From a virus, in the IMG/VR virus record IMGVR_UViG_3300021373_002597, positions 1 to 25,561 of that record: a stretch of DNA of 25,561 nucleotides; one strand, 5' to 3'. Positions 1,325 through 22,212 of the stretch are shown here, one piece after another. Each line of letters opens with the position of its first letter. The first letter of the stretch is position 1. Under the pieces are notes generated by a model, which worked only from the letters and a program-made list of their open reading frames with translations, did no database searches and was not told where the DNA came from. A program made the translations under genes and the position numbers.

Positions 1325-2395
1325 TTAGACTTTTTTAACATGATTAGAAACTGCATCAACGTATTTCTTAACATTTCCGTCAATGTATTTATCATTTTGC
1401 TCAACTTCAACTTGCTCATCCATATAGAAAACATTGGAAGACACTGCTTCTCTTAATACTGATGCTGTGTCAAACTCATTAGCAACAAAGGTTTCTTTGA
1501 GTGCCGTTAATTTATCATTAAGCTGAGAAGCATTGTCAGCATCAACATTTTCTGCGAGTTTCTTTAATTTATCTCTTTGCATCAAAGAAAGGTCAGCAGA
1601 AACTGCCTCGAAAACCAGAGCCTTTTCAAGCTCATTAATATGAGATCTCTGGTTCATGTTCTTTTTGATTTGCTCATTAAGCTTTGTTTTGAGATCTTCA
1701 ACCTCAGTGTAAGCTTCCTGAACCATCTCTACCTGTGTGTCATCAATAGCAATATTGTAAGACTTAATTACCTTAGAGATGTCGGTGATCATATTTTCGT
1801 ACAAATCACCTTTGATTCCATTATCCAGAACAAGCTTGTTCTCGACCATGTATTCCTGAACGGAGTCTTGCATGAAAGCTTCTACAGACTCAGTTAAAGC
1901 TTCTACTTCAGCCTTAAACTGAAAATCAAAATCTTCAGAAAGTTCAGCAATAATTTCGTTTTCTACCTCGTCCATCTTCTGGGCAATAGTAGCCTCAAAG
2001 ATAGCAGCAGCTTTATTACGAACTTCTTCAGAAAGCTCTTCGCCAGAAAAAATAGTATCAACAGCTTCTTTAGCCATGATAGTAGACTGGTTAACTACAG
2101 CAGCCTCGTCTGGAACTTCATCTGCTTTATCTTCAGGATCTGCTTCAGTTGCCTCTGGAGCAGGTTCAGCAACAGTTGCTAAGACTTGATTGACTTTAGC
2201 ATCATCTGCTGTAAGAACTGCATTGATGATTGCAGAGTTTTTGTCTGCTCTAGACATTCCTTCACCAACCTCTTTATCCTGCGGTCTAGCAGAGGGCTTT
2301 GGCTCAGAAACGACTTGAGAAGAAGACAACTCTGGTGTTGGCTCATCTACAGGGACAACATTTGTCGATTCAACAATTTTTCTTCTACGTGCCAT
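1325..2395 (-). CDS. 22: Prohead core scaffold protein gp22
   Basis: This is the main scaffold of the prohead core, around which gp23 assembles; in T4 it is degraded by gp21 and leaves the head as peptides. The 356-residue product is highly charged and mostly helical, with predicted coiled-coil stretches from about residue 130 to 300. The segment around residues 120-140 (ELSEEVRNKAAAIFEATI) is typical of gp22 in marine T4-like phages. The first 100 residues are Pro/Glu/Ala-rich, low in complexity and probably disordered. This helps to make the protein longer than T4 gp22 (269). An IVE triplet at residues 7-9 fits the gp21 cleavage rule. Position between gp21 and gp23 supports the call. AAGGAG at 2406-2411 lies ten bases before ATG, and a late-promoter core precedes it. 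Confidence 0.92.
   Translation of the reverse strand: MARRRKIVESTNVVPVDEPTPELSSSQVVSEPKPSARPQDKEVGEGMSRADKNSAIINAVLTADDAKVNQVLATVAEPAPEATEADPEDKADEVPDEAAVVNQSTIMAKEAVDTIFSGEELSEEVRNKAAAIFEATIAQKMDEVENEIIAELSEDFDFQFKAEVEALTESVEAFMQDSVQEYMVENKLVLDNGIKGDLYENMITDISKVIKSYNIAIDDTQVEMVQEAYTEVEDLKTKLNEQIKKNMNQRSHINELEKALVFEAVSADLSLMQRDKLKKLAENVDADNASQLNDKLTALKETFVANEFDTASVLREAVSSNVFYMDEQVEVEQNDKYIDGNVKKYVDAVSNHVKKV
1386..1393 (-). promoter_or_regulatory. Possible late promoter for gp23 (GATAAATA)
   Basis: GATAAATA on the minus strand lies inside the 3' end of gp22, 77 bases before the gp23 ATG. T4-like late promoters have the core TATAAATA, recognised by the phage sigma factor gp55. Its place fits an extra start for the most abundant protein, but one mismatched base and the coding context make it uncertain. 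Confidence 0.45.
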
Positions 2396-2421: not shown

Positions 2422-2429
2422 TATTTATT
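2422..2429 (-). promoter_or_regulatory. Late promoter core before gp22 (AATAAATA)
   Basis: The minus strand reads AATAAATA, one base off the T4 late core TATAAATA. The gp21 TAA stop (2425-2427) lies inside it. The gp22 ATG is 26 bases downstream, with AAGGAG at 2406-2411 in between, leaving room for a short leader. Confidence 0.65.
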
Positions 2430-3081
2430 TAGATAAGTTTTTGAGAAAATCCTCAAATAATGATAGTTTAGCTTCTGGTGTCAAACTACGTGATCTAGTT
2501 TTCTCTTCAACGATGTTTTCGTATCTTTCAATGGTAGAAGCTTTTAAGATTCCATTATCCCAAACCCACTCAACACCTTCCATAATACCGTTAACAAAAG
2601 CATCAGGAGCAGACGGATCTGCTACGATGTCTGCTGCAGTAGCAAGAGAAAAATCATCTTGCACTTCCTGAAACTCTCCTCTGGATTTCAAAGATCCCAT
2701 TCCTCTTGTGGAAACGCCAAGAGTAGCACCTTCGTCAATTAAAGACTTAACAATTCGTCCGTTAGGAGTATCAAGAATCTTAGCCGTACCGATGAAATTA
2801 TTGTCATCTTTACGCATCTCAACGATCATGTGGGAAACTCTATCAAGATTGATAGTTGGTCCCTCTGGATGACCGAGTTCCCCAAAAGCTCTTTTCTTTT
2901 CTACGAGTTCAGAGCAATATTTCGCAACTTCCTTTTCAAGAATCTCAATCGGATAGACACGACCATTCTTATTTTTCTTTTCACCTTGAATAAAAATACC
3001 TTCAATATAATATTGGGGCTTACCATCCTTATTCTCTTTAAGGAATTGTACTTCTTCGTTAATTTCTGTGATCAGCTTCAT
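2425..3081 (-). CDS. 21: Prohead maturation protease gp21
   Basis: This serine protease of the T4 gp21 family (MEROPS S77) is activated inside the prohead and cleaves scaffold, core and capsid proteins after (I/L)-x-E. The 218 residues match T4 gp21 in length (212). The family signatures are visible: NKNGRVYP at residues 37-44, ELGHPEGP at 68-75 with probable catalytic His71, and LGVSTRGMG at 121-129 with probable nucleophile Ser124. A C-terminal acidic/basic tail after residue 190 is probably the part removed on activation. The start overlaps the stop of the 518-residue gene by ATGA, indicating translational coupling; no strong ribosome-binding site sits at the usual distance. Its stop codon lies inside the late-promoter core of gp22. 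Confidence 0.96.
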   Translation of the reverse strand: MKLITEINEEVQFLKENKDGKPQYYIEGIFIQGEKKNKNGRVYPIEILEKEVAKYCSELVEKKRAFGELGHPEGPTINLDRVSHMIVEMRKDDNNFIGTAKILDTPNGRIVKSLIDEGATLGVSTRGMGSLKSRGEFQEVQDDFSLATAADIVADPSAPDAFVNGIMEGVEWVWDNGILKASTIERYENIVEEKTRSRSLTPEAKLSLFEDFLKNLSK

Positions 3082-4634
3082 AAGTCGTACAACCTTCTTG
3101 TTTCTGGGTCTCTTTCTTCACTTCTTTCAAGCTCTTGAATTAATTTTTTAATCTCTTCATCAGACAAACTTGCTTTAAGAGTTTGTGTTTCCGCAGATAA
3201 TTTTCTCATGAGATCTCTATCTCTTGAAGCTTCTCTAGCATTCATCTTATTTCTACGGTTACTCAAGTATGCACGATACAAGAATGGACCAGCTATTCCT
3301 AATGCAAGAGCACCTGAAAGAGATAAGGTAAGTCCTTTATGGGCAATTAAAAAACCAATAGCTGGAGCAATTGCCTTTGTTGTTACTGTCCAAATATTGG
3401 AAAGTTCAGTACTAAACCACTGAAGTCTTTTAAACTTATTGATGAACTTCGTTATAACATTTTCAATTTTTTCGGGATCTGCAATTCCACCAGAATCAAT
3501 GTCTGGTTCTGGTGCCGTAATAACATCAAGACCAGAAGGTGATTCTGGTGTATCTGTTCCAGCAACCCAAATCCCTTGAGAAACTAAGAAATCTTTTTCT
3601 GCGTCTGTGTAGATCTTACCTTTTTCTGGATACTTAGATGCAAGATCATTTAATCCCTTGATAGAATAAGAAATGAAATTTGAGTTTGGAGAATCACCAT
3701 AAATTTCATTTTGACTTGCATTCCAAGGAATTTTCACTGAGTTTAATTCGACAGACAAATCGACTTGAGCATTTTGCAAGCTTTTATTGCTAAACTTTGT
3801 CGTTGTTGTTACGGGCATAGAAGTGTAATCTTCTCTATGGAAAAGGATATGTTTTCCCTGTCTGTACCCGTCAATTTTATCTCTATGCAGATGATATACT
3901 GGATGGAAAGGTCTAGAGTTTTGTCCGGGCTTTGATGTGGATGAAAGGAAAAGACCTGTTCCACCACGGCCAGCTACAATAAATCCGCCACCTTGTTCCC
4001 AAATAATTTTATTGAAACCAGAAGAAATCAAAGCTTTTGTGCATTCGAGGAAAGGCTCAGCTAGATTTGAATTCGAACCTTGGTATTGAAGAATAAAACC
4101 CTTTCCATCAACCAAAATAGAATCATATTTTGCTCTATGCTTATTCGGAACTTTTCCAACCCAAACACTCCAGTCCGAAGAACCGGAAAACTTTGAACCT
4201 GCAGCCGCCAAAGCTAGGTTCGTATTTTTTTCAGCAAAAATAGGTATGTCTTCTTTGATGTTAAATCTTTTACGATAGTTTGGATTGATAACACCAAGTC
4301 TGTTTGCCCAAGATCCTAAGTCTGTGTAGCTGTACTTGGACGAATCTAATTTGGGTGGTTCGTTCAACAATCTTTTAGTGAACGACCCGTCTTCACCGTA
4401 ATCAGAATCCATGACAGCATCAGAAAGATCTGTATCAGAACCTACTTGCTCAGAAATATCCTTTTTAACAATTTTTTGAGCTTGCTCTTTGCTAATTTCT
4501 ACAGGATATTCTTTACCACCAAACTCGAAAGACTCTTTACCTGCGAGTGCAGCTTCTGCAGCAGCATAAGTAAAATCAGACTGATCTTCTGTTTTCATGC
4601 CCTTTCCGAGCAAAAGCTTTTTCTTCTCAAGCAT
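3078..4634 (-). CDS. Unrecognised 518-aa protein in the prohead core cluster (gene 68 position)
   Basis: I do not recognise this family. It lies between gp67 and gp21, where T4 has the 141-residue core protein gp68, but is nearly four times longer. Residues 21-46 form a compact motif with key residues F21, A-rich helix, G32-K33, F36, F38, G40-K41, Y43-P44, resembling short motifs I recall at the ends of various marine phage virion proteins. (I/L)-x-E triplets at 60-62 (ISE) and 90-92 (LNE) are possible gp21 cleavage sites. Residues 130-330 look like a globular mixed alpha/beta domain with glycine-rich turns near 215-227. A Pro/Asp-rich linker (362-388) leads to two hydrophobic segments (about 419-432 and 436-455), which could form a membrane hairpin, then a basic helical tail. 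GGAG before ATG 4634 supports the start. An internal or ejected head protein, or an extended core protein, are both possible; this is inference. Confidence 0.72.
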   Translation of the reverse strand: MLEKKKLLLGKGMKTEDQSDFTYAAAEAALAGKESFEFGGKEYPVEISKEQAQKIVKKDISEQVGSDTDLSDAVMDSDYGEDGSFTKRLLNEPPKLDSSKYSYTDLGSWANRLGVINPNYRKRFNIKEDIPIFAEKNTNLALAAAGSKFSGSSDWSVWVGKVPNKHRAKYDSILVDGKGFILQYQGSNSNLAEPFLECTKALISSGFNKIIWEQGGGFIVAGRGGTGLFLSSTSKPGQNSRPFHPVYHLHRDKIDGYRQGKHILFHREDYTSMPVTTTTKFSNKSLQNAQVDLSVELNSVKIPWNASQNEIYGDSPNSNFISYSIKGLNDLASKYPEKGKIYTDAEKDFLVSQGIWVAGTDTPESPSGLDVITAPEPDIDSGGIADPEKIENVITKFINKFKRLQWFSTELSNIWTVTTKAIAPAIGFLIAHKGLTLSLSGALALGIAGPFLYRAYLSNRRNKMNAREASRDRDLMRKLSAETQTLKASLSDEEIKKLIQELERSEERDPETRRLYDL

Positions 4635-4637
4635 TGC

Positions 4638-5021
4638 TTACTCCGAATCTTCTTCTTCGTCAGTTTCTTCTTCTACAGAATCATCATCTTCAGATTCTTC
4701 TTCGTAAACCATCTGATCTTCTTCTTCGTCGTAGTCGGCTTCACGATGTCCCTGTTCAGGCTGAACAGCATCATCACCAGCAGGATCCTCATCCGTTTCT
4801 GGATTGCCTTCAACATCAACAACATGTTTAGCAACAAAATCTTTGTCTGCTTCAGAGTCAAAGATTTCTGGATATTGCTCTGCAATTTCTTGCTGAATCT
4901 CTTTTTCTCTGGTTTCAATTTTTTCCATGAGCTTTCTAGACATTGCAGCTTTAAAGGCACCTTGAGCACCATCCAAATTATCTTCAGCAATGTAGTGAAT
5001 AATATTTTTTACATCATTCAT
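4638..5021 (-). CDS. 67: Prohead core protein gp67-like (acidic)
   Basis: This small acidic protein follows the portal gene, as does T4 gp67, a prohead core component needed for correct head shape and cut by gp21. The first 45 residues are helical with the pattern IAEDNLDGAQGAFKAAM and then a charged helix; T4 gp67 has the same layout of a short amphipathic N-terminal helix followed by an acidic tail. Residues 80-127 are almost entirely Glu/Asp with Ser, Thr and Gly. At 127 residues it is longer than T4 gp67 (80), mainly in the tail. IAE at 11-13 and again near 45 are possible gp21 sites. AAGGAG at 5029-5034, seven bases before ATG, is a strong ribosome-binding site, and a late-promoter core overlaps the gp20 stop just upstream. 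Assignment rests on context and composition, since acidic tails align poorly. Confidence 0.8.
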   Translation of the reverse strand: MNDVKNIIHYIAEDNLDGAQGAFKAAMSRKLMEKIETREKEIQQEIAEQYPEIFDSEADKDFVAKHVVDVEGNPETDEDPAGDDAVQPEQGHREADYDEEEDQMVYEEESEDDDSVEEETDEEEDSE

Positions 5022-5043: not shown

Positions 5044-5051
5044 TATTTATT
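5044..5051 (-). promoter_or_regulatory. Late promoter core before gp67 (AATAAATA)
   Basis: This is the same octamer as before gp22, again containing the upstream stop codon in the same register (gp20 TAA at 5047-5049). The gp67 ATG is 22 bases downstream, with AAGGAG at 5029-5034. It would drive the head-core genes 67, 518-aa and 21. Confidence 0.65.
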
Positions 5052-6561
5052 CTTCTTCCTGAGAAGACTTCAAATTTTGCATCTGTTGATATTCCTGCAT
5101 ATTTTCCATTGTGATTCTATCAACATCATTGTTTGTTTGTCTTAAGATATTCTTCTTAATGTAATTTGTAGAGAAGTATTTACCGTTATATTGCTCTGCT
5201 TCTCTGAGAGTTATGAGTCTTTCTCTGAAGATCTCATTTTCTTTCAATTCAGTGTAGAAATTATTCTCATTATATCGGATCAAGATATCTTTTTTGATCG
5301 AATCAAATTCAGCAATATTCATAATACCTTTAAGAACAAGCTGAGTTTTGAGACAAGAATAAATTAGCTCATTGAATTTAACTCTAAGTCTTTTGACAAA
5401 CTTGTGGAATTTGACTTCATCTCTATTAATTTCAGAAGCTCTTCCCAAAGTGTAAGACACTTCAGCTTCCATTCTAGAAGTAGGAACGTTCAAAGCTCTG
5501 TAGAGTTTCTTTTGGAAGTACAGAATATCTTCCATCTGACCCAAGTTGTTGCCACCGGGCAATGTACCAATCTCAGTACCACGACCACCTTCTCTTCTTG
5601 GGAGCCAATAGTCCTCAAGCATAGTCATAAATTTACGATCATCTTTAACTTCACCAGAGGAAGCGTCGTAAATTAATTTGTTCTTATGTTTTTGCATCAT
5701 GTCACGCAGGTATTGCTCAGCCTTCATTTTAGGCAAGTTACCCACATCGATGTAAAAAATTCTTCTCTCAGGTGCTCTTGCAAGTCTGTAAATGACTGCA
5801 GCATCTTCCAAAGCTCTAAGCTGATTAACAGGCTTTATTGCTTTGTGGAGGTGGGAAAGGACCATCTTATTAGATTTGTCCAAAATTCCAGAATCACAAT
5901 AAACAATAGAATCTTTAGCAATTCTTATTGAAGAAGCATTTTGAGGCATTGTAGAAATATTGGTTCCCACAAAACCATCATTACTGTAAACATAGTACTC
6001 GTTTTTAATTTTCTTCTCGGAGAACTGTGTTTTTGGATCTCTTTTTTCTTCAAACTCTACAATACGTTTAATTTTTCTTGGATCAACGTATCTGAGTTCT
6101 TGAATTCCAATAGCTGGATTACTTTCATCAATCACAACATGGTAGTAGATTCTTCCATCAACATACCATTTTCTAAACATTTCATAAGATTTTTCTCGGA
6201 ATTCAAGAAGATCCACAATCTTTTCGAATTCCGAGTAAATTAACTTCTTAAGAGGTTGATTAACGTTAACTTTGTCGAGGGAAATTTTTAGTGTATCGCC
6301 AGCCTCATCTGGATTTACAACTTCATTGATAATGTCATCAACAGCAACCTCTACTTCAGGCTGCATGATCATCTCTCTATATTTGTTGATTAACTCAACA
6401 TCATTTCTTACCGAACCATCAAGATCAACGTAAGAACCATAAAACCCTCCGGTGCTGACGGTGACAGAGCCATCGTCAAACTCCGGTTGGGTAAAAGTTT
6501 TTACCTGATTGTCGTCTTCTTTTCCTTGAACACGACTAATATTAAAACCAAAAATTTCCAT
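5047..6561 (-). CDS. 20: Portal protein gp20
   Basis: The portal is the dodecameric ring at one head vertex through which DNA is packaged and ejected, and it starts prohead assembly. The product has 504 residues (T4: 524). Typical gp20 segments are seen: YREMIMQPEVEVAVDDIINE near residues 62-81, DGRIYYHVVID near 136-146, IRIAKDSIVYCDSG near 213-226, and the conserved stretch around 330-375 with GNNLGQMEDILYFQKKLYRA and NVPTSRME. I place the start at ATG 6561 rather than at the TTG immediately before it, because AAGG at 6570-6573 is eight bases from this ATG. The gene lies between tube gp19 and core gp67 as in T4. Identification is secure. Confidence 0.97.
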   Translation of the reverse strand: MEIFGFNISRVQGKEDDNQVKTFTQPEFDDGSVTVSTGGFYGSYVDLDGSVRNDVELINKYREMIMQPEVEVAVDDIINEVVNPDEAGDTLKISLDKVNVNQPLKKLIYSEFEKIVDLLEFREKSYEMFRKWYVDGRIYYHVVIDESNPAIGIQELRYVDPRKIKRIVEFEEKRDPKTQFSEKKIKNEYYVYSNDGFVGTNISTMPQNASSIRIAKDSIVYCDSGILDKSNKMVLSHLHKAIKPVNQLRALEDAAVIYRLARAPERRIFYIDVGNLPKMKAEQYLRDMMQKHKNKLIYDASSGEVKDDRKFMTMLEDYWLPRREGGRGTEIGTLPGGNNLGQMEDILYFQKKLYRALNVPTSRMEAEVSYTLGRASEINRDEVKFHKFVKRLRVKFNELIYSCLKTQLVLKGIMNIAEFDSIKKDILIRYNENNFYTELKENEIFRERLITLREAEQYNGKYFSTNYIKKNILRQTNNDVDRITMENMQEYQQMQNLKSSQEEE

Positions 6562-6569
6562 CAACTATA

Positions 6570-15702: not shown

Positions 15703-18700
15703 TTAAACCTGTAGTGCTATAGCTCTTACATCATCAATAATAGCTGGGTTAGAAGAATTTTTATCACCAAAGCCATCTGGCGAATCAATAGTTGCATAAG
15801 TTACAATTTTTAATTGGAACTGTTTATACGTATCGTAAGTAGTTCCGCTTCTAAAGTATTCAGCAACACCTGTAGTATCATTAGTTGCAACTAAGCTATT
15901 TGCAGTAAAGCCGCTTGTGTGTTTGAATGCATAATCAGATCCTGTTGTGTCGTTAAATATTTTGACCCACTCAGTATCATTAATTTCACTTCTGGTGAAT
16001 AATCTAAATTCAAACTCTTTAAGATCTTCTCTATCATTTCTGGAAGAATTTACTTCTGGGGTAAGATCTTTCAACGGGGTGAAAAGAACATCATCAATAT
16101 TATCAAGCTGGTTTACAAATCTACCAAACACATAAATCTTAGCTCTTGGTGGCTTAAACGCAGAGACTATAACTCTCATATCTTCAGCGTCTTGTCCGTC
16201 TGCAAGATTGATTGGCTGTGAAATATATCTAACGTTTGTTTCACCAAGACCAGAGAATATTTCACTGTAAATACTCGCAGAGGTTTCTGTTCCAACAGAC
16301 GTTCCATCAATAAAGTTATTAGCATTGTCATCTGGTGTAATTGTTAAATTACCCAGCGCTGTTAACAGAGTTCTTCTGAGATCCAAAAATGGGGATGTCT
16401 TTTCTGTTGCGTTGGACATGTTAACATCAATTACAAAAGAAGAATTTCCAGTTGCAGAACCAAGCTTCAACACTTCATTAGTTCTTGATCTGAGAACTAA
16501 TGGATTGTCTGTGTATTCATATTCTTCTTCGTTAGGAATTGCAAAAGTCTTACTAGATGTATTTGAAATGTTGTATACAAAGTCCATATCTATAGAAGAC
16601 TTTTTGTAAACACCTGTAGTAAACTGAGGAACAATACCACTGTATTCATGATCCTTCAGAGACATGAAAGTTGTCCCCACAAACTTGTTTATGTCAACAG
16701 TTTCTGTATCCAACAAGCTGTCAGAAGGTCTGTAGAAAGCAATCTTATACTTTGTAGTATTTTTTGTGCTTCCATTAAGAAGTGTCTCATTAAACACCTT
16801 AGTTGATGAAGATGTTAAATCTCCTGTAGATGGAGAGAGGTTGATGATGTTGTTAATATCATCAACAGAGGAAACAATTCCGAAAATAGAAGTGTTTACA
16901 TTTGCAACGGTCAAAGATGGATCCGTATTTGCGGATGTCATGCCATAGATGTAATCGCCTACTCTAATCGATGTATGACCATTAGTAAATGTAATATCTT
17001 CATATTCACCACGATCAACGTTTCTAGGCTTCATTCTAAGAACAGCAGATCCTGTAGAGAATACTGCTCTCTTGATTGTAAATTTGATATCTTCATCCTG
17101 AAGAGCAGACCAAGTATCTTGGTTAGCACCTAAGAAGGCAATTCCTTCATATGGCTGAGAATTTACTGCAGTTCCTGTCAAGATATCTGCTCCCCCAAGC
17201 TGAGAGAAATAAACATCGTAGTCAGGATCGTCAGCTTCAGGCTTTACTACAAAAGCATATCCTCTGTCTTTCTTTAAGAAGATAGGGTAAGAGAATTTAA
17301 ATGTGGTTGCAGCAGATGCATCATCGGAAACGTTAACATCAGAAGGATTTACTGTAACCTTAGAAGCACCAAAGACTTTCGAGGTATCTGGATAACCGTT
17401 TTCAAGTGGGCAGACATATACTTTGATAGCATTTTTAGAAGACTTTCTCTTGAAGAAAAGATCTATCGAAGAGATAAAAATACCATCTTCATCTGTTGCC
17501 GTATCACCACGAACATAGAATGTTTGAGCAATAGGATCGTTTCTTCTTCTTTCGACTACAGTTTCAGTAACTGTCTCAATCTCAAAAGTTCTCTCCTGAA
17601 GTTCAACTTTTTGAGCACCTAATCTATTAGAGTAGAACATTTTGGAAGCAGAAGAGAGAATAGCATCAGTTTCAGTCTCAAGATCTTGAACATCAGCAAC
17701 TAATGCATTTCTATCACCCTGCAAGAATGTGTCTTTGGGAACAAAGAAAGTACCAGAAACAACGCCGTTTCTAGAAGAAACTAAAGGATCTCCTTTGTTG
17801 CCAGCTATTCTGATTAAATTGCCAGTGTCTGTAGAAGTTGAAATTTGATCTTGGATTTGCTTTTCAGTAATTTCACCATTGCCATCCTGATACAGAATGA
17901 TTGGTGAAATGCTAGAGGCAACCACAGGACTTGTAGAAATTACAGAAGGTGCTACATGCTCATCAACATTAACATTATTGAAGAAGAATGAATGTTGTTC
18001 GTTTGGTCTCAGACCAGTTGCAACGAAGTTTATAGCCAGTTCTCTGATAAACGGACTAATCGAAACATCTACAACTCTTTCACCAACAGTCTCCAACTCA
18101 CCTTCGGTGAAACGAGTTACAGTCCGTGTTCCAGTTCTTTGTTGAACGTTTTGTATTCTACCTCGTCTTGTTGTTCTGGTTGTTCTCCAATTACCCCAAT
18201 TTGTCGTTGTTCTTTCAGAAACAGGAGGTGTTTCGTCCGGGTTGATAATAATATTTCCAACGTTTTCAGAATCAACACCAACATCATATTCTGGGAATAA
18301 TTTAAGATCACCAACAAACCTTATAGAAACAGGTGCAGCAGGTCTTACTTTGGTTGCTTTGCCTTGCTTTAGGTATTCAGATTCACCATAATTGTACATA
18401 ACTCTATGACCGAACACACCAATGTTTCCAGAAATAATTTCTGGTGTGAAGTTGTTCACCAAAACTTCTTCAAAGTTGGGTCTAAAGTGATTTGCCTCTT
18501 TATCGATAGTTACTCTATATTCACTATCATTAGTGGCACCAAATTGATGAGATACAAATGGCTCTACAAAAATACCATTTTTGAATCTTTCGATCCCACT
18601 AGCATTTTTAAACTGCTTGTTGAACGTATCGGACTCAAGTGCATTCAATGAAGTATAGTATTCAAGATTTCCGATTCTCTGATCAAGAGTTCCGATATCC

Positions 18701-21700
18701 TTCATGGTATATCTTCTGATATTAACTTGATCAATTTTGATTCTGTAATCTCTTACATCAAATTCGGTCTTTTTATCTTTAAGCTTACCGCCGCTGTAAA
18801 TATTAAGGGCAGACGTTGACTCTTCTCTTGTAAGAGAGGGGTAAGGTGCTATTTCGAGAGAAGCAATTTTCATTGCTTTGTTTACTTCTGGTGGTAAAGA
18901 ATTTGTATTGTTGGAAACCGAAACCGTGAGTGTAGAGTTTTCGCCAAGATACACATCTGCTCTTTTTGGAAGATTTGTCTTGTAATCAGAAACAAATTCA
19001 GAATCATTCTTGAATATTAAGAAAGAGTTTTTGCTTGTACCGCTTGATTTAGCAGAGTCTTTATCTTTAACATTAGTCACATCTACGGTAGAGGTATTCG
19101 CTACACCAGAAATAAGATTTGTATTTTCTTTATTATTAATTCTTGGTCTGTGATCTACCACGTCACGAAGGGCAATTTTTTCACCAGCCACAGACGTATA
19201 TGTTGGAATCTCTTCAAACTTGATAGTGGTGGTGTTTGCAGTCGAGTTTGTGGTTGTCGGGTAAGAATCTACTGTGAAATAGCCTTCACCGTCATTATTA
19301 TCGATTGTGAACGCATCCATCTCAACAACAATGGTGTTATTAGATGTTACAAAGTTCTTAAATCTTCCCTTTTTGGTCAAGTGAAGAGAGCCGTAATCGT
19401 AGAAATGATCTCTCTGACCTGAATCATACTCAAAGAAACCACCATTTACTTTGTTAGACGAGGCAGTCAGATCTGCAGAAGTGAAAGTATCGTTTGCATT
19501 TCCATTATTTTTGTTTGTAAGAACCCAAACACCTGTCACTTTATGAATATCAGATACACCAAGATCCCAAGGACCGATAGAGTTGGCAGTGTTGTTAGCA
19601 GTATTGATTCTTCTGTAAAGAGACTTCTTAATATCTTTACTAAATGGCTTGTAATTTCTTCCATTAAACTCGTAAGTTGCTCTTACGGTAGTTGCTCCAG
19701 AATAATTACTGTTATTCAAGATTGGAATTGTAGCTGTTAAGGTATTGTTTACCTGATCAGTTGTAATCATTGCAGAATCAACTGCAATCGTCTTTCCAAC
19801 AGGTATAATTTTCTTCAAAGTTCCCGTTGTATCGGTACTTGCTTCATTCGTTTGAATTTCCGTAGAGGAATTGATTTTTGTAACAATAAGCTGATTACCA
19901 GAGTCAATCTGAACAATGTCACCAACATGAATATTTGCACTGAAACCAGCAGATAATGTAATTACATTTCCTGATGAAGTGGTTACTCCGGTGGAGTTAC
20001 AAGAGATCTCGCTACCCACGTTGGAAAGAATAAGATTATTAACTTCAGCTGAAGTGTAAGATCCAATTGCATTATTTCCAGTAAGATCTGTTTCGTCATC
20101 AACGTCTATGACAATAACACCAGCAGTTGACATAGAGTCTGTAACAGAAGCAAATTTTCTCACTACAAAGTTGTTATCAAAAGTGCCGGATCCATCAGTA
20201 TAGGATCTGATAGCTGGTTCACCAAAGGAGTCAAATGGAAGTTCTTCTGCATTTGCAATCACAGCATTGTTGCTGGAATTTAAGATGATGTCAGCGCCAC
20301 CCTTCACAGTGTCATTTGTGACAATAGTTCTTGCGTTAGAAATAGAGTCATTTGCCGATTGCTCAACACCAAACAAGTGAATTCTATAAACGGCCTCAGA
20401 AGATCCCGGTGTTCCAGATTCAAGCTCTACAGACTTAACATAAGCTCTACCAACATTGTTGGATGAAGCTGGTGTGAGACCTGTTAAACTGGTTAGAAAT
20501 GTCGTGTTTGATGCTGGGAAGTATCCATCATTTGCACCGTTGTGTACAAAGGAAACTCTGTCATAGGGTGCAAAACTGCCGTTAAACTGCTTAACCCTGA
20601 TGTAGTTCCCGTAATTAATACCTAATTCAAAGTCCTCTCTCTGAAGGGTATTAGTACCTCGTACAATAGTTTCTGAAATCGGAGATAAAGTTTCTACTTT
20701 ATAACCGTTAACATAGCCCAAACCGGGTTCTACGACAATTTTAATTAACTCGTTATTTGCTGTTACAGCTTCAGTGTCAGCAGAGAATCTTTTGACTGTA
20801 AAACTTCCTGCGTGATCAGTATTTCTTTGCGCAAGCTGATCACCAAGAATATTATATTGTGGATCCCTGTTCTCGCTAAGAACTTCACCATCCTCATTGA
20901 AGTTTATAAGGACAGCAACAGCTTCTCTATTATTCAGGTTTGCTGTGTTTGCGGCTACCATTGCAGGATCTAATTTTAATCTATCAGCCCCCGGTGCAAC
21001 TTCGTTGTTGAACCCGGCAGAATTATCAAGCAAAGACGTGTCTGCTTTAAACGTTACAATAGATTCGCTTGAATCAATTGCTACGATTGTTCCATTAGCA
21101 CCTTCCACGCTATCGGAAACGACAACGAAGCCGGAATCGATGTTAAGGAACTGACCTTTATGGAAAACAACACCGTCTTCATTCGATGCAAGTGTACATC
21201 TAGACGAGGTTGGAACTGTAGCTGATTTAAACGTTTGCAGACCAGTGAATTTAGTTGTATTTAACCCTTCAACAAAACTCACTTTATCATCATTTTTAAG
21301 ATCATACTTAAGAACAACATGTGTCGTATTTGGTGTGTAGTCAATTGTTCGTGTTTGTTGATTTCCGTTAACAAAAACATTTAATGTATCAGTATTAGCT
21401 ACTGAAAATCCTAATAAAAATGTATTGGATGTAACAGAAGTATTTACAGTGTTAGACTGTGTATTTCTTACAGTTCTCTCAACAACATCCAAAATCTCTG
21501 GAGAGTCAGCAGTACCGAGGACACCAAATTCTGTTAAATTTCTATGAATTGTAAAGTTATTCGATGTTACCGCTGTATTGCTAAAGGAAAGTTTTCTGTT
21601 TAAGGTTAAGGAAATGTTGTTTGCAATGTTGTCAATTTTTGCCTGAAATGCAACTTTTCTCTTTTCTGGGGTTTGGAAAATTGTCATGTAATCACCAACA

Positions 21701-22212
21701 GCATAGTTGGTGAAAGAAGTTCCTGTTCCAGTAACAGTGTTGGAATTTATTGTTACAGAGACATTTCCTACTGCAGTCTTAGTGTTGGAGTCATCTACAT
21801 TAGTGTAAATGACATACAATCTTTTGGTGTTTGGAGATTCTGCCTGAGATCCCTCTTGTTGAAAAATAATTTTAGCTTCAACATCACTAGATTGAGAAAC
21901 AAGTGTCAAATTGTTGGAAGAATTTAAAATAGCTTCTAAGTCAACAACACTATTGTTAGAATAAGAGTTTCTAAATCTAACAACATGTGCCTGATCAACA
22001 ATAGAGGGGTTTACACCGTCTACAATAGACCCATCCTTAAAGACATGAGAACCAAATCTATTGATTTGTTTTTGAAGAATTGTCTGCAATTGAGACAACT
22101 CTCTAGCCTGAACTGCTGTGCTCGGCTTAAAGAGAATTCTATAGAATTTTTTATTTTCTACGTAATCATCGAAATAAGGAGAACCGGAAAGATTGGTGTT
22201 GATATCAGACAT
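15703..22212 (-). CDS. Giant tail/baseplate structural protein, DUF4815 type (2169 aa)
   Basis: This is the largest gene, 30 times the length of its downstream neighbour. The N-terminus carries the DUF4815 signature, VQARELSQLQTILQKQINRF at 34-53, followed by HVFKDGSIVDG. Around residues 1160-1185 is DIGTLDQRIGNLEYYTSL, a recurrent segment of these proteins. It is followed by an Arg/Thr-rich linker near 1337-1365, VVDVSISPFIRELAINF at about 1383-1397, DPIAQTFYV near 1560, and RGYAFVVKPEADDPDYDVYF near 1650. The rest is long Asn/Ser/Thr-rich beta structure with no catalytic motif that I recognise. Similar giants in marine T4-like phages are virion proteins of the baseplate or tail-fibre network; the exact role is unknown. 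AAGG six bases before ATG supports the start. A perfect late-promoter core lies 67 bases upstream. Confidence 0.9.
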   Translation of the reverse strand: MSDINTNLSGSPYFDDYVENKKFYRILFKPSTAVQARELSQLQTILQKQINRFGSHVFKDGSIVDGVNPSIVDQAHVVRFRNSYSNNSVVDLEAILNSSNNLTLVSQSSDVEAKIIFQQEGSQAESPNTKRLYVIYTNVDDSNTKTAVGNVSVTINSNTVTGTGTSFTNYAVGDYMTIFQTPEKRKVAFQAKIDNIANNISLTLNRKLSFSNTAVTSNNFTIHRNLTEFGVLGTADSPEILDVVERTVRNTQSNTVNTSVTSNTFLLGFSVANTDTLNVFVNGNQQTRTIDYTPNTTHVVLKYDLKNDDKVSFVEGLNTTKFTGLQTFKSATVPTSSRCTLASNEDGVVFHKGQFLNIDSGFVVVSDSVEGANGTIVAIDSSESIVTFKADTSLLDNSAGFNNEVAPGADRLKLDPAMVAANTANLNNREAVAVLINFNEDGEVLSENRDPQYNILGDQLAQRNTDHAGSFTVKRFSADTEAVTANNELIKIVVEPGLGYVNGYKVETLSPISETIVRGTNTLQREDFELGINYGNYIRVKQFNGSFAPYDRVSFVHNGANDGYFPASNTTFLTSLTGLTPASSNNVGRAYVKSVELESGTPGSSEAVYRIHLFGVEQSANDSISNARTIVTNDTVKGGADIILNSSNNAVIANAEELPFDSFGEPAIRSYTDGSGTFDNNFVVRKFASVTDSMSTAGVIVIDVDDETDLTGNNAIGSYTSAEVNNLILSNVGSEISCNSTGVTTSSGNVITLSAGFSANIHVGDIVQIDSGNQLIVTKINSSTEIQTNEASTDTTGTLKKIIPVGKTIAVDSAMITTDQVNNTLTATIPILNNSNYSGATTVRATYEFNGRNYKPFSKDIKKSLYRRINTANNTANSIGPWDLGVSDIHKVTGVWVLTNKNNGNANDTFTSADLTASSNKVNGGFFEYDSGQRDHFYDYGSLHLTKKGRFKNFVTSNNTIVVEMDAFTIDNNDGEGYFTVDSYPTTTNSTANTTTIKFEEIPTYTSVAGEKIALRDVVDHRPRINNKENTNLISGVANTSTVDVTNVKDKDSAKSSGTSKNSFLIFKNDSEFVSDYKTNLPKRADVYLGENSTLTVSVSNNTNSLPPEVNKAMKIASLEIAPYPSLTREESTSALNIYSGGKLKDKKTEFDVRDYRIKIDQVNIRRYTMKDIGTLDQRIGNLEYYTSLNALESDTFNKQFKNASGIERFKNGIFVEPFVSHQFGATNDSEYRVTIDKEANHFRPNFEEVLVNNFTPEIISGNIGVFGHRVMYNYGESEYLKQGKATKVRPAAPVSIRFVGDLKLFPEYDVGVDSENVGNIIINPDETPPVSERTTTNWGNWRTTRTTRRGRIQNVQQRTGTRTVTRFTEGELETVGERVVDVSISPFIRELAINFVATGLRPNEQHSFFFNNVNVDEHVAPSVISTSPVVASSISPIILYQDGNGEITEKQIQDQISTSTDTGNLIRIAGNKGDPLVSSRNGVVSGTFFVPKDTFLQGDRNALVADVQDLETETDAILSSASKMFYSNRLGAQKVELQERTFEIETVTETVVERRRNDPIAQTFYVRGDTATDEDGIFISSIDLFFKRKSSKNAIKVYVCPLENGYPDTSKVFGASKVTVNPSDVNVSDDASAATTFKFSYPIFLKKDRGYAFVVKPEADDPDYDVYFSQLGGADILTGTAVNSQPYEGIAFLGANQDTWSALQDEDIKFTIKRAVFSTGSAVLRMKPRNVDRGEYEDITFTNGHTSIRVGDYIYGMTSANTDPSLTVANVNTSIFGIVSSVDDINNIINLSPSTGDLTSSSTKVFNETLLNGSTKNTTKYKIAFYRPSDSLLDTETVDINKFVGTTFMSLKDHEYSGIVPQFTTGVYKKSSIDMDFVYNISNTSSKTFAIPNEEEYEYTDNPLVLRSRTNEVLKLGSATGNSSFVIDVNMSNATEKTSPFLDLRRTLLTALGNLTITPDDNANNFIDGTSVGTETSASIYSEIFSGLGETNVRYISQPINLADGQDAEDMRVIVSAFKPPRAKIYVFGRFVNQLDNIDDVLFTPLKDLTPEVNSSRNDREDLKEFEFRLFTRSEINDTEWVKIFNDTTGSDYAFKHTSGFTANSLVATNDTTGVAEYFRSGTTYDTYKQFQLKIVTYATIDSPDGFGDKNSSNPAIIDDVRAIALQV

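Follow-up and report, generated by a model that had tools for sequence, protein, structure and literature searches.

A mosaic protein with constant ends and a variable middle in the head gene cluster of a T4-related virus, and its possible role in cell entry

Between the genes for a gp67-like core protein and the gp21 prohead protease, a little-known relative of phage T4 encodes a 518-aa protein that is a member of no described family, being neither gp68 nor an active M15 peptidase. The protein is a mosaic: its N-terminal module and its C-terminal helix and tail are constant, and its middle varies even between near-identical phages. We found it in a 25.5-kb virus record (IMG/VR IMGVR_UViG_3300021373_002597), all 25,561 nucleotides of which are referred to here as the window, and we call it the slot protein after its position. 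The middle has a predicted M15/LAS fold from which the zinc ligands are missing in the window's type, and it is replaced by a different middle in a sister type. Our preferred reading, to which we give slightly less than an even chance, is that this is an internal head protein that would be cleaved by gp21, ejected, docked on the cell wall and inserted in the inner membrane.

The 518-aa open reading frame of the preliminary description stands (Table 1); it lies on the minus strand, which that description had left unstated, and the plus-strand frame of the same interval has 22 stops. It is a real gene, because there are full-length homologues in other contigs and because dN is 0.009 against a dS of 0.056 in comparison with the closest relative (285 codons). 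The gene order on the minus strand is terL, gp18, gp19, gp20, the gp67-like acidic protein, the 518-aa gene, gp21 and gp22, with gp18, gp19 and the gp67-like protein named by position and appearance, and the earlier placement of the gene in the head-core cluster is borne out. The gp67-like gene stops 4 bp before the start of the 518-aa gene, which overlaps gp21 by 4 bp (ATGA). Elsewhere in the window, a 2169-aa ORF in the structural region (15703-22212, minus strand) probably encodes a baseplate or fibre protein.

Table 1. Positions in the window of the slot gene, its parts and the neighbouring head genes
Feature	Position	Strand	Evidence
gp22 scaffold	1325..2395	-	Pfam T4_CASP E 1e-41
gp21 prohead protease	2425..3081	-	Pfam Peptidase_S77 E 3e-35; PHROG 207
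518-aa slot protein, ATG ORF including stop codon	3078..4634	-	ORF analysis, homologues in other contigs
Basic helical C-terminal tail, aa 456-518	3081..3269	-	hydropathy/charge, AF2, hhalign
AGAAGG, codons R513-R514, probable gp21 Shine-Dalgarno	3093..3098	-	alignment
Conserved hydrophobic helix, about aa 433-455	3270..3338	-	hydropathy in seven proteins
Pro/Asp-rich linker, about aa 360-395, poorly conserved	3450..3557	-	sequence, conservation
Rest of middle region, aa 236-354, low model confidence, invariant H250	3573..3929	-	AF2, alignment
M15/LAS-like core (predicted), aa 96-235, zinc ligands not conserved	3930..4349	-	AF2, fold searches, zinc columns
Predicted gp21 cleavage after E62 (I-S-E / Q), codons 62 and 63	4446..4451	-	[IL]xE column
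N-terminal module and predicted propeptide, aa 1-62; folded part aa 18-57	4449..4634	-	conservation, hhalign, AF2
gp67-like acidic core protein	4638..5021	-	position and composition; without curated family match
gp20 portal	5047..6564	-	Pfam Portal_T4 E 2e-161

Searches of Pfam, PHROGs, NCBIfam, PADLOC and PDB sequences gave nothing useful for the slot protein, and tblastn with five queries against 50,697 phage records found no relative. None came from bacterial and archaeal genome contigs either, where the one match was a spurious one in an unrelated protein. In IMG/VR, about a dozen contigs of the window's clade have such a protein in the slot. Relatives of the window type range from 97% identity (L002, partial) through 40-41% (L003, L096, L097 and L098) to 35% (L008, L009 and L010), a more distant slot protein of 783 aa is encoded in L022, and a 313-aa sister protein occupies the same slot in L020, L021, L087 and L092. 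In every relative contig that includes the neighbours, the gene is flanked by the gp67-like gene and gp21.

To place these proteins in a wider context, we surveyed the slot in 56 loci that have gp20 and gp21 in order, some of which are the same contig. By hand count, 28 of the 56 have a slot ORF with a T4 CTS-like start, MK(T/S/N)(L/F)K..(L/F/I). The slot proteins that are long and have a clear hydrophobic helix belong to the window's clade, and some other loci have long ORFs without the helix. Other small genes and segments were also noticed. L062, L066, L068, L071, L072, L075 and others have a second small ORF of 80-154 aa directly before gp21 (e.g. L071:4055-4504), the 57-aa ORF in the slot of Ochrobactrum phage ORM_20 (L014:2708-2881) is strongly hydrophobic over one segment (KD 2.1), and Vibrio phage D532 (L016:1808-2260) has an extra 150-aa ORF, annotated as hypothetical, between the portal and core genes. 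Two different slot proteins (L022:2153-2290 and L028:888-3236) have a second short segment, LT.AE.KK.E..V.A.KR.NP.M....AYAIAT..AK.VAE, which is possibly another portable module.

The mosaic can be seen by comparing L003 and L008, which are 99% identical in the portal, 93% in gp19 and 90% in the gp67-like protein. Their slot proteins are 72% identical in the N-terminal module and 77% in the last 13 residues, and only 26% in the core; the two contigs differ by 1% in the portal versus 70% in the slot protein. From these alignments, the simplest account would be that the middle was exchanged, or diverged very fast, between fixed ends. Near-identical gp20 and gp19 beside a dissimilar core is what is seen with exchanged alleles, and T4 IPs and Alt are known to enter the host, where Alt modifies the RNA polymerase (PMC9026906). 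These points would favour a protein that is injected, as T4 IPI or Alt is, to take over the host or counter its defences in the cytoplasm or at the membrane, and whose middle changes by arms race. We think this quite improbable, given that no convincing match was found in PADLOC or to known effectors, that dN/dS to the nearest relative is low, and that both types of middle point to peptidoglycan, as described below.

The central domain, which the first reading of the sequence could not assign, can now be placed in the M15/LAS group, by predicted fold only. This is a thin assignment, an AF2 fold with almost no sequence support. One model covers the whole protein (mean pLDDT 47 from 13 sequences) and another only aa 96-354 (58 from 10 sequences; core 75-89). 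Fold searches with both lead to M15/LAS/Hedgehog, and the two models are not independent of each other because they have sequences in common. VIA gave Z scores up to 9.3 (rmsd 3.1, 112 aligned), and among the matches listed every row with Z of at least 5.7 belongs to the M15/LAS/Hedgehog superfamily. The top matches in BFVD are named M15 peptidase (probability 0.99-1.00, best E 6e-4). Foldseek with the full-length model found no match in the PDB with E below 1, and the M15 assignment rests on the second look with VIA and on BFVD. The Pfam Peptidase_M15_3 profile gave no match up to E 10, and membership of M15_3 by sequence was rejected, with the full-set profile-profile score at shuffle level. 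Three phage-type M15 sequences, a subset chosen afterwards, match in the expected register and better than 200 of 200 shuffles.

At the three columns that correspond to the zinc ligands (H-x6-D and H), we found D/N/K/S/E, Q/D/E/K and V/I/Y, and the only histidine in these columns, in L022, is probably an alignment shift. The clear invariant histidine of the middle region, H250, is outside these positions. An active M15 peptidase was rejected because the zinc ligands are missing; since the ligand positions are not conserved and H250 does not fall there, the modelled domain is most likely a pseudo-peptidase. The middle of the sister protein differs and has a PG_binding_1-like motif, VPEIRELQKELGVGVDGKVGPDTFSAM, which is found in the sister proteins and not in the window's own protein. 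By hhalign this motif has a probability of 92 and a score of 44 versus a shuffled maximum of 20, and the Pfam PG_binding_1 matches in L020 and L087 (E 0.004 and 0.011) fall short of the curated cut-off. Our main argument for action at the cell envelope is that both middles, different as they are, suggest peptidoglycan.

The N-terminal motif noticed earlier was confirmed, with aa 1-47 being 62-74% identical between the window and three other lineages, compared with 27-41% for the core. The first 58 residues are common to the window protein and the sister protein (hhalign E 7e-17), and a module of about this extent (aa ~1-58) is common to all full-length variants. AF2 predicts a helix, a beta-hairpin and a helix in the folded part (pLDDT about 77). 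In T4, gp21 cleaves after L/I-x-E, and internal proteins have N-terminal targeting propeptides of 10-19 residues (PMC9026906). Two gp21 sites had been suggested in the slot protein, E62 and E92. E62, directly behind the module, is the sole [IL]xE column conserved in the four lineages of the window's type compared (ISE/IYE/IYE/IVE), which amount to nearer three independent cases, given how close L003 and L097 are; E92 is not conserved and was rejected. In the L020 (sister) type and in L022, no canonical [IL]xE follows the module. We take the conserved column as support, not proof, that gp21 would cut after E62. A short T4-like CTS was not found at the N-terminus in the window's clade, and the module, which is unlike the short T4 CTS, may have a targeting role.

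A profile of the module matches proteins of other phage contigs, in which it is embedded or in tandem, and found nothing in six complete T4-like phage genomes; judged from these matches, the module is portable. The carrier in L127 has a match (E 3e-14) to a PHROG family with the name virion structural protein, and the other carriers are without a family. At 4 kb or less from the carriers outside the slot, no T4 head genes were found, apart from a piece of gp18 close to the one in L102. Because the module lies inside proteins of other phages without T4 head genes nearby, it may have another role. In L120, L122, L123, L124, L128, L129 and L132 (about 3.3-4.9 kb of each locus) it occurs within a CxxC phage protein family with zinc-ribbon type motifs (CEQCG...GECSECG), on contigs some of which are 257 and 296 kb, and the two members tested have no PHROG family. 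In L125, L126, L130 and L131 (e.g. L126:3929-4744) it is near the N-terminus, directly after MKNLFQDAFNESLDK, and in L125, L126 and L131 it is in tandem. L102:4202-8623 encodes a 1473-aa Pro/Lys-rich protein, with no PHROG family, that combines the module with other short repeat-like segments and lies near tail-type genes.

At the C-terminal end, two hydrophobic segments forming a membrane hairpin, followed by a basic helical tail, had been proposed. The second segment (aa 434-452) is conserved in every variant and present in 7 of the 7 proteins examined, with moderate strength. Because the first segment is weak and not conserved, the hairpin is not supported and was rejected. The tail was upheld: the 15 residues after the helix have a net charge of +4 to +6, and helix plus tail are homologous between the window type and the sister type (hhalign E 6.6e-12, score 67, with shuffles reaching 20 at most). 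The positive-inside rule would place the tail in the cytoplasm and the body outside, and the slot protein has no visible signal sequence. A protein delivered from a virion would take up this topology, and insertion from the producing cell would fit less well. The invariant RRLYDL end was rejected as a protein motif, as it is confounded by the gp21 Shine-Dalgarno: AGAAGG just upstream of the gp21 ATG is invariant in all lineages with this tail, and the fixed C-terminal end is, at least in part, a DNA effect.

The conserved helix and the core-cluster location would also suit a prohead-core protein of the producing cell, an alternative already raised in the preliminary description. Its C-terminal helix would tether the prohead to the inner membrane during assembly, the protein would be broken down or set free at maturation, and ejection would not be needed; T4 proheads do leave the membrane after proteolysis (PMC9026906). 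We consider this unlikely. Peptidoglycan-type middles make little sense in the cytoplasm, a cytoplasmic tail and outer body, as the basic C-flank suggests, are awkward without a signal sequence, and a middle that is swapped beside nearly identical portal and neighbouring genes is odd for a part that has to fit the core.

Another possibility is that the protein sits where gp68 does and is an ordinary core or scaffold component: it would shape the head and be digested by gp21, and the fold and motif likenesses would be accidental or a relic. The place is the same as that of gp68 in Straboviridae, the zinc ligands are lost and the M15 sequence evidence is weak. Homology to gp68, which the preliminary description had singled out as telling against its reading, was looked for and not found (BLASTP E 46; hhalign probability 0.1, E 0.63), and a gp68 homologue was rejected. 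Few gp21-type sites are conserved, only one being common to the lineages, and a conserved hydrophobic helix is not expected of such a protein, so we regard this possibility as distinctly unlikely.

Under the head-carried reading that we prefer, the N-terminal module would hold the slot protein in the prohead core, and a gp21 cut behind E62 would leave a mature protein of about 456 aa that is kept in the head with the DNA. During infection, the protein would exit via the portal and tail into the cell envelope, where the middle domain would dock on peptidoglycan, by a catalytically dead M15/LAS fold here and by a peptidoglycan-binding motif in the sister phages. The hydrophobic helix would insert in the inner membrane, leaving the basic tail on the cytoplasmic side, and may help DNA or proteins across. 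The original suggestion, a head protein that is targeted, processed, perhaps injected and able to reach the membrane, is strengthened by the N-terminal module, the one conserved gp21-type site, the peptidoglycan-type middles and the helix with its basic C-flank, although without the E92 site and the hairpin. The position of the slot, the CTS-like ORFs in half of the loci surveyed and the order of parts in T7 gp16 also speak for the head-carried reading. Counting against it are the sister type and L022, without a canonical site behind the module, as well as an M15 call from AF2 on 10-13 sequences, a PG motif below cut-off and a helix of moderate strength.

More speculatively, the clade may carry an exchangeable envelope-entry cassette, in which a portable head-loading module and a membrane anchor are combined with a replaceable peptidoglycan-recognition domain (pseudo-M15 or PG-binding) and ejected with the DNA, for a gp16-like function with a contractile tail; we would put this well short of even, as a rather doubtful extension. 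If the head-carried reading is right, proteins that are directed at the wall and insert in the membrane can travel in T4-type heads, a task associated until now mainly with the ejection proteins of short-tailed phages. The slot between genes 67 and 21 and the portable module would be handles for finding other packaged proteins of uncultivated phages, and the clade offers a natural case of a protein middle swapped between constant ends in nearly identical surroundings.

Among known systems, T4 gp68 has the same gene position, directly upstream of gp21, but is 142 aa rather than 518 aa, and its composition and parts differ. T4 IPI-III and Alt resemble the slot protein in their head-core context, in a propeptide cut by gp21 at [IL]xE (predicted here) and in a fast-changing mature part. 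However, their propeptides are 10-19 residues (PMC9026906), compared with about 62 with a folded module in the slot protein, and the IPs act in the cytoplasm, with no peptidoglycan-type domain described for them in that paper. The M15/LAS peptidases (VanX, zinc DD-peptidase, phage endolysins) and Hedgehog have the same predicted fold as the slot middle, but the zinc-ligand positions are altered in the slot protein and there is no family-level sequence match. T7 gp16 has a peptidoglycan-type domain followed by membrane regions, is encoded with head genes and varies in domain content among related phages (PMC8954989). It has an active transglycosylase and 1318 aa, whereas the slot protein has a predicted fold without zinc ligands, a predicted propeptide and a T4-type phage as its carrier. 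For the slot protein the order of parts would be the same, judged by fold and hydropathy only, and the likeness that we draw is one of architecture.
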